A stretch of DNA of 64,000 nt, from positions 1 through 64,000 of the forward strand of contig JAIKZM010000162.1 in the NCBI GenBank assembly GCA_024682215.1, read 5' to 3'. Origin of the DNA: Saccharofermentans sp. (GTDB lineage Bacteria > Bacillota > Clostridia > Saccharofermentanales > Saccharofermentanaceae). A model generated the notes under the pieces. That model saw only the letters and a program-made list of their open reading frames with translations. It was not told the DNA's origin and ran no database searches. This document shows, piece after piece, positions 56,383-56,862 of the stretch. The translations under genes and the position numbers were made by a program. How positions within the stretch are numbered: position 1 is the stretch's first letter; every line of letters starts with the position of its first letter.

Positions 56383-56474
56383 CTTATAAAAAAATGGCGA
56401 AAAAACGGGCAAAAATTATAAGAATCGGCCGAATCTTATAAAAAACGCTCGAAAAATACAGACTTTTTTATAAG
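56383..56474. repeat. symmetric array of four TTATAA boxes around a 26-bp near-palindrome
   Basis: TTATAA at 56384, 56416, 56436, 56468; core TTATAAGAATCGGCCGAATCTTATAA at 56416-56441; inner and outer pairs share one dyad centre (56428.5). Confidence 0.6.
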
Positions 56475-56541: not shown

Positions 56542-56570
56542 TTGACAAACCCAGGATCAAATAATATCTT
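56542..56570 (+). promoter_or_regulatory. trp operon promoter
   Basis: TTGACA-N17-TATCTT immediately upstream of the T-box leader. Confidence 0.65.
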
Positions 56571-56576
56571 TATCAC

Positions 56577-56862
56577 AATAGAGAAACCGTAGATTCGGAA
56601 GTAAAGATGTTTCGTGCACTTACAGAGAGTCCCGAGAGCTGAGATGGGATGGTACGCAGTTCATCATAATGGTCCGATGAGGGCACAGTCAAAGGGAGCC
56701 GTATGGCAACTGAGTATTCTGTGACGGGTGGCACCGTTAAGAAGCCCGGGGTATGTTGGTACTCAAGTAAGTGCACAAGCAATTGTGAATCAAGGTGGCA
56801 CCGCGGATTATCGTTTAATTCGTCCTTGGAGAAGAAGTGGTTCTTCTGCCGGGGACTTTTTT
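56577..56862 (+). ncRNA. T-box riboswitch, Trp specificity, with terminator at 56822-56862
   Basis: Stem I: TCGG-AAGTAAA-GATG (56595-56609) pairs with CATC-ATAA-UGG-U-CCGA (56662-56677), specifier UGG 56670-56672; AGAGAG distal motif; T-box AAGGTGGCACCGCGG 56792-56806; terminator GTCC..GGagaagaa/ttcttct..GGAC + T6. Confidence 0.93.

Follow-up and report, generated by a model that had tools for sequence, protein, structure and literature searches.

Four-box arrays of fixed geometry and species-specific sequence at dispersed intergenic sites of rumen Clostridia: candidate docking sites for a DNA-binding protein

The bcr1-type chromosomal repeats of Bacillus cereus are intergenic, dispersed and lineage-restricted, measure ~100-200 bp, and are conserved in both sequence and structure. 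Plasmid iteron and centromere arrays (sopC-, parC- or tubC-like) consist of boxes in helically phased tandem. The parS, Noc and matS sites are few, dispersed and mostly promoter-independent; they are single short palindromes of widely conserved sequence, and each kind is served by one trans-acting protein. Finally, REPINs are short, extragenic, inverted and dispersed, with a lineage-specific sequence, conserved ends and a spacer of constrained length (PMC3116915).

The array studied here lies upstream of the trp T-box in the window (a stretch of 64,000 nucleotides of contig JAIKZM010000162.1 of Saccharofermentans sp.), and the nearest described kinds to the family that it represents are, in our assessment, the REPINs and the dispersed organisation sites (parS, Noc sites, matS); we would file it under neither. 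Like REPINs and REP sequences, the family is short, extragenic (21/21 loci), inverted, dispersed and lineage-specific in sequence. Unlike REPINs, which occur as inverted doublets and singlets in tens to hundreds of copies per genome, it counts 3-11 arrays per genome, always of two complete units and without singlets, in which four boxes form two direct 52-bp units with fixed spacings and A-tracts on the same strand. REPINs also have a linked RAYT, and none was found in the stretches examined, including 490 kb of the genome G040, by what is a weak motif test. The family lacks the singlet/doublet pattern and the copy number of the REPINs, though it is extragenic as they are. With the parS, Noc and matS sites it shares the low number, the dispersal and a mostly promoter-independent placement, as well as a dedicated trans-acting protein, which in our case is a prediction from the species-specific boxes that the loci of a genome share; it differs from them in having four boxes per array and a sequence that switches between congeners. 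The longest arrays, those of Geobacillus (14 boxes) and of the genome G023 (7 boxes), resemble plasmid iteron and centromere arrays, while the family differs from these in having exactly two units, at many chromosomal loci, and no adjacent replication or partition genes. Like bcr1 it is intergenic, dispersed, ~100-200 bp long and lineage-restricted; unlike bcr1, only its boxes, its spacing and its A/T-G/C pattern are conserved.

In the window sequence the four TTATAA boxes (Table 1) are spaced by 32/20/32 bp around a common dyad centre at 56428.5. The inner pair, TTATAAGAATCGGCCGAATCTTATAA, is a palindrome with a single A/A break, and the outer arms are CTTATAAAAAA and TTTTTTATAAG. The original prediction had given the box positions, the spacings and the centre correctly to the base; its description of the inner palindrome and of the outer arms was also confirmed, as was, by the coordinates, its placement of the array between a divergent membrane-protein gene and the trp promoter. 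An alignment of 15 arrays has the boxes in the order right-left-right-left, each as (C)TTATAA followed by A/T bases; each N26 contains a central A-tract of 5-6 bases, on the same strand in both halves, the centre of the array is G+C-rich, and the loop lengths are invariant. Given the oriented boxes and the same-strand A-tracts, the array is best understood as a 38-bp inverted-box unit present twice in direct orientation, with a period of 52 bp, and the same translational period recurs in the arrays of G042, G023 and Geobacillus.

Table 1. Parts of the four-box array and its surroundings (positions in the window).
Feature	Coordinates	Strand	Remarks
Context: divergent membrane-protein gene, 197 aa	55680..56273	-	
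Unit 1, 38-bp inverted-box unit (box 1, N26, box 2)	56384..56421	+	
Box 1, outer left, TTATAA	56384..56389	.	(C)TTATAAAAAA, points right; invariant in 12/12 arrays of G000 and G040
Mid-unit A-tract of unit 1 (GAAAAAAC)	56400..56405	+	same strand as the A-tract of unit 2
Box 2, inner left, TTATAA	56416..56421	.	points left (AAAATTATAAG)
14-bp core GAATCGGCCGAATC between units	56422..56435	.	A/T-G/C-A/T pattern common to loci; sequence not fixed
Unit 2, 38-bp inverted-box unit (box 3, N26, box 4)	56436..56473	+	repeats unit 1 directly, 52 bp further on
Box 3, inner right, TTATAA	56436..56441	.	points right (CTTATAA); 52 bp from box 1
Mid-unit A-tract of unit 2 (GAAAAAT)	56452..56456	+	
Box 4, outer right, TTATAA	56468..56473	.	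points left; 52 bp from box 2
Context: likely trp promoter (TTGACA, 17 bp, TATCTT)	56542..56570	+	outside the element; in eight relatives, array-bearing or not; direct reading
Context: trp T-box leader, outside the element	56581..56830	+	RF00230, 80.8 bits, E 8e-18; gathering score 93

The distribution of the family was studied with the pattern TTATAA-N26-TTATAA-N14-TTATAA-N26-TTATAA. The genome that contains the window (G000, a draft of 2.63 Mb) matches it exactly, with 0 mismatches, in five places, a number that is a minimum because the genome is only 85% complete; there were no matches with 1-3 mismatches, and a reversed control pattern gave 0 matches. Among 148 relatives, exact copies occur only in the congener G040, which has seven, and a longer variant occurs in G023. 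The original prediction had suggested such a search and had named many dispersed copies, the mark of a generic repeat, as its refutation; the outcome is 3-11 copies per genome that are highly constrained and do not behave as a generic, decaying repeat. Three-box searches of G000 and G040 returned only parts of four-box arrays, plus chance matches with two mismatches; therefore in these two genomes the four-box unit is all-or-none. Chance as the origin of the arrays is ruled out by controls at three levels, which are the reversed pattern, the window, where TTATAA-N14-TTATAA occurs once against 0.01 expected by chance, and a 490-kb contig of G040, where the spacings 20, 32, 52 and 84 among 178 TTATAA come almost only from its four arrays. 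These genomes are drafts, many of them incomplete, and the count of the family covers the box types matched by the patterns used.

Across 84,980 GTDB species, the one other place where the exact pattern was found is Geobacillus thermocatenulatus, in which 14 TTATAA boxes follow each other in tandem with alternating spacings of 20/32; IMG/VR has one contig with an array of this type. The two 14-box arrays lie at positions 903-1240 of L031 (G. thermocatenulatus) and 4080-4418 of L037 (the IMG/VR contig). The Geobacillus island contains mostly unknown genes, one of them with an HNH nuclease, the sole informative Pfam match among the neighbours, and by eye an AbrB-like gene is recognized ~4 kb away. 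Phage and plasmid collections gave no DNA matches to the arrays of Geobacillus or G042, and IMG/VR no pattern of the G042, G002 or G023 type; an origin as a known phage or plasmid element was rejected on these results.

Comparison of the G000 and G040 orthologues reveals 0/96 changes in the boxes vs 22/264 in the spacers (Fisher p=0.002), which argues that boxes and geometry are held by selection in place. The boxes do not differ among eight independent TTATAA loci, while the spacers agree in 56% of the bases and in 80% of the positions when only the A/T or G/C state is considered (31% and 55%, respectively, after shuffling). These values suggest that it is the shape of the DNA, and not the sequence of the spacers, that is held. 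Copying has left a trace as well. Contigs C92 and C113 of G042 have in common a block of ~181 bp (~97% identity) with an array inside and unrelated flanks on both sides, so that one array of this genome was copied recently as a discrete block. This block (L164 ~698-878; inverted in L166) also includes one more, overlapping unit and, on its left, a 47-bp part with GGTGATG...CATCACC. At several loci the array is absent in relatives. The element is thus both copied and held, as constraint on the boxes in place is found together with the block copy in G042 and with absences in relatives.

While the geometry is fixed, the sequence of the boxes is not the same in all carriers. The rplS-rbgA locus has orthologous arrays in G000 and G040, with TTATAA boxes, and in G002, which has three arrays in total and where the boxes of this locus read TTATCG, TTCGAA, TTCGAA and CGATAA with the spacing still 32/20/32; relative to G000 and G040, all four boxes have changed symmetrically and the core is retained; the array of this locus has been inherited in place. 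A box-independent pattern identified G000, G040, G002 and G042 as carriers among 85 genomes of the genus, and no further carrier among 188 genomes of the order. The eleven two-unit arrays of G042 have the box TTRAMCTAYA, a spacing of 31/21/31 and again a 52-bp period; variants of this box track its position in the array and not its pairing. In G023, seven boxes of the TTATAA/TGATAA type are found directly beside eight TGTATCGG/CCGATACA boxes, both sets with period 52; the latter (C44, L028 5099-5293) alternate in orientation, with spacing 29/23 and an exact 52-bp period. A second array, with box GTATGCTA, is also present on contig C89 of G042; the array that lies there beside the TTAACC-type array (L163 ~320-510) has the box GTATGCTAAAA/TTTAGCATAC and a 52-bp period, and a solo unit is present ~95 bp upstream. 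When 0.9 Mb of sequence was scanned for inverted-box tandems of period 40-64, 84 matches fell at 52 and <=12 at any other period; since the scanned DNA was enriched for known arrays, these numbers reflect the dominance of 52 bp and not a genome-wide frequency. In the family as a whole, each element consists of two units of 37-38 bp, repeated directly with a period of 52 bp, and in each unit two boxes of 6-10 bp in inverted orientation enclose an A-tract.

In the window, ~110 bp separate the array from the start of the divergent membrane-protein gene and 68 bp from the trp -35 box (56542), the array being upstream of both; the T-box match begins 107 bp downstream of the array. No Rfam 15 covariance model matches over the array, the sole match being the neighbouring T-box, below the gathering score; the features of this T-box are clear, yet a default Rfam scan misses it at 80.8 bits against 93. 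Divergent membrane gene, promoter and T-box are present in all of the eight genomes compared (G000 and seven relatives), and the array in G000 and G040 only. Between these two genomes, the 90-bp array is 98% identical, and divergence is visibly greater in the flank towards trp.

These data bear on whether the array is a multi-site transcriptional operator, specific to trp or general, a reading that the original prediction had listed and that its divergent position beside the trp promoter, and the resemblance of four boxes on one face of the helix to cooperative operators, would favour. For a trp-specific operator we find no support, and we reject it: upstream of orthologous trp operons, where conservation was to be looked for, promoter and T-box are kept in relatives that have no array, and arrays are present at unrelated loci without preference for promoters. 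The array is thus not a trp feature and does not serve the trp operon. All 21 independent loci are intergenic with respect to open reading frames (in two cases the sole overlap is with doubtful extensions of an ORF), whereas the intergenic fraction on contig C6 of G040 is 7.4%. The flanking genes of the 20 classifiable loci are tandem in 13 cases, convergent in 4 and divergent in 3, against 14.2, 0.9 and 4.9 expected by length; divergent regions are not favoured, and promoter regulation does not predict the observed placement. The neighbouring genes have no common function, and an operator of any kind is on the whole very improbable. A replication fork trap (Ter) was also considered and rejected, as it calls for a uniform orientation to the fork: along contig C6 of G040, a draft contig within one replichore that holds four sites, the strands of the A-tracts are mixed (-, +, -, -).

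The main rival of a protein-binding function is a non-autonomous mobile repeat of the REPIN kind, in which the boxes would be lineage-specific recognition sites of a transposase, conserved for copying and without a host function. The discrete ~181-bp copy with sharp ends at two unrelated G042 loci, the presence or absence of arrays between relatives, the partly convergent intergenic placement, the second arrays of another box type that lie next to the first in G023 and G042, and a species-specific sequence with common architecture, as known for REPINs (PMC3116915), are all consistent with it. Against it, spacers change at orthologous sites of long inheritance where the boxes are held, G000 and G040 have no decayed or partial copies, the copies are only 3-11 with no target duplication seen, and no Y1-transposase-like motif was recognized in 0.5 Mb of G040 or in the other stretches examined (a weak motif test); we consider this reading possible but doubtful. 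A MITE with terminal inverted repeats was rejected, as the N26 arms are not mutual inverted copies and have the A-tract on the same strand. The symmetry could also reflect base pairing, if a structured RNA or a folded single strand, in the form of a nested hairpin, were the functional form. The arrays do fold well (z from -4.8 to -9.0), as expected of any box dyad; contig C105 of G002 has matched substitutions in both stems relative to the G000 and G040 orthologues, and in the TTATAA set native halves fold slightly better than chimeras (p=0.035 for one strand, 0.08 for the other). In G042, however, native halves fold no better than chimeras, and facing boxes are no more complementary to each other than boxes of different loci are (0.918 vs 0.926; 0.764 vs 0.736), which leaves a hairpin RNA unsupported in that genome; locus-specific compensatory changes were not seen there, while matched changes are found at one G002 locus. 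Moreover, the four bases that flank the inner boxes in the window are A/A and unable to pair, loop lengths are constant in 15 arrays, a constancy that an RNA loop would not need, and elements are present in convergent gaps. A folded strand is thus improbable, and we favour recognition of the DNA by a protein over folding of the strand.

On balance, we interpret the element as a low-copy, dispersed, extragenic binding platform for a dedicated trans-acting protein, and more likely as a chromosomal marker than as an operator. We infer the protein from the fact that the loci of a genome have species-specific boxes in common; the identical geometry with its own box sequence in each related rumen bacterium suggests docking sites for a DNA-binding protein that evolves fast. 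Such a protein would contact all four boxes, which lie roughly on one face of the helix at 3, 2 and 3 turns, by means of four DNA-binding modules, and would bend or wrap the A-tract DNA between them to form a compact complex, whose shape would fix the geometry. The box sequence would be matched to the protein of each species, as TTATAA in G000 and as other boxes in G002 and G042. Judging from its placement, the element may mark chromosomal positions as an anchor or organisation site, which is likelier than an operator since the genes on either side of it have all possible orientations, and occasional copying would seed new positions. Two points against this binding platform are that the ~181-bp copying in G042 and the presence/absence differences also fit a mobile repeat, and that the symmetric box change in G002 and the weakly raised self-folding of the TTATAA arrays also fit recognition of a folded strand. 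The original prediction had offered an architectural-protein site or a small mobile element, and each captures a part: constraint in place supports the former, the discrete block copy the latter. A more far-reaching proposal, which we regard as rather unlikely, is that of a new chromosome-organisation system of a genus of rumen Clostridia, in which a tetrameric or two-dimer protein of rapidly switching specificity would form compact complexes at a few centromere- or anchor-like four-box sites of fixed geometry, unrelated in sequence to parS, Noc sites and matS.

Fixed geometry combined with a species-specific recognition sequence at orthologous sites would constitute a natural record of protein-DNA co-evolution, and the arrays point to a candidate DNA-binding protein for which a 92-bp bait could be used. 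Should the sites organise the chromosome, they would represent a new class of such sites; should the elements be mobile, they would represent a new architecture of miniature bacterial repeat. Searches by consensus would miss the family, because only the spacing and the A/T-G/C pattern are shared between its members.

Tandems with other periods were also encountered. Contig C6 of G040 (221670-221950) has a tandem repeat of a different style, with period 64 and internal inverted repeats (CTCTATAGTAGAG). Paired inverted-box tandems are found in G023 (C44, L113 1399-1500), with period 63, boxes TTGTTGGCC/TTGTTGGTC and matched changes, and in G042 (C70, L170 1480-1610), with period 62 and the box TCACGGC.
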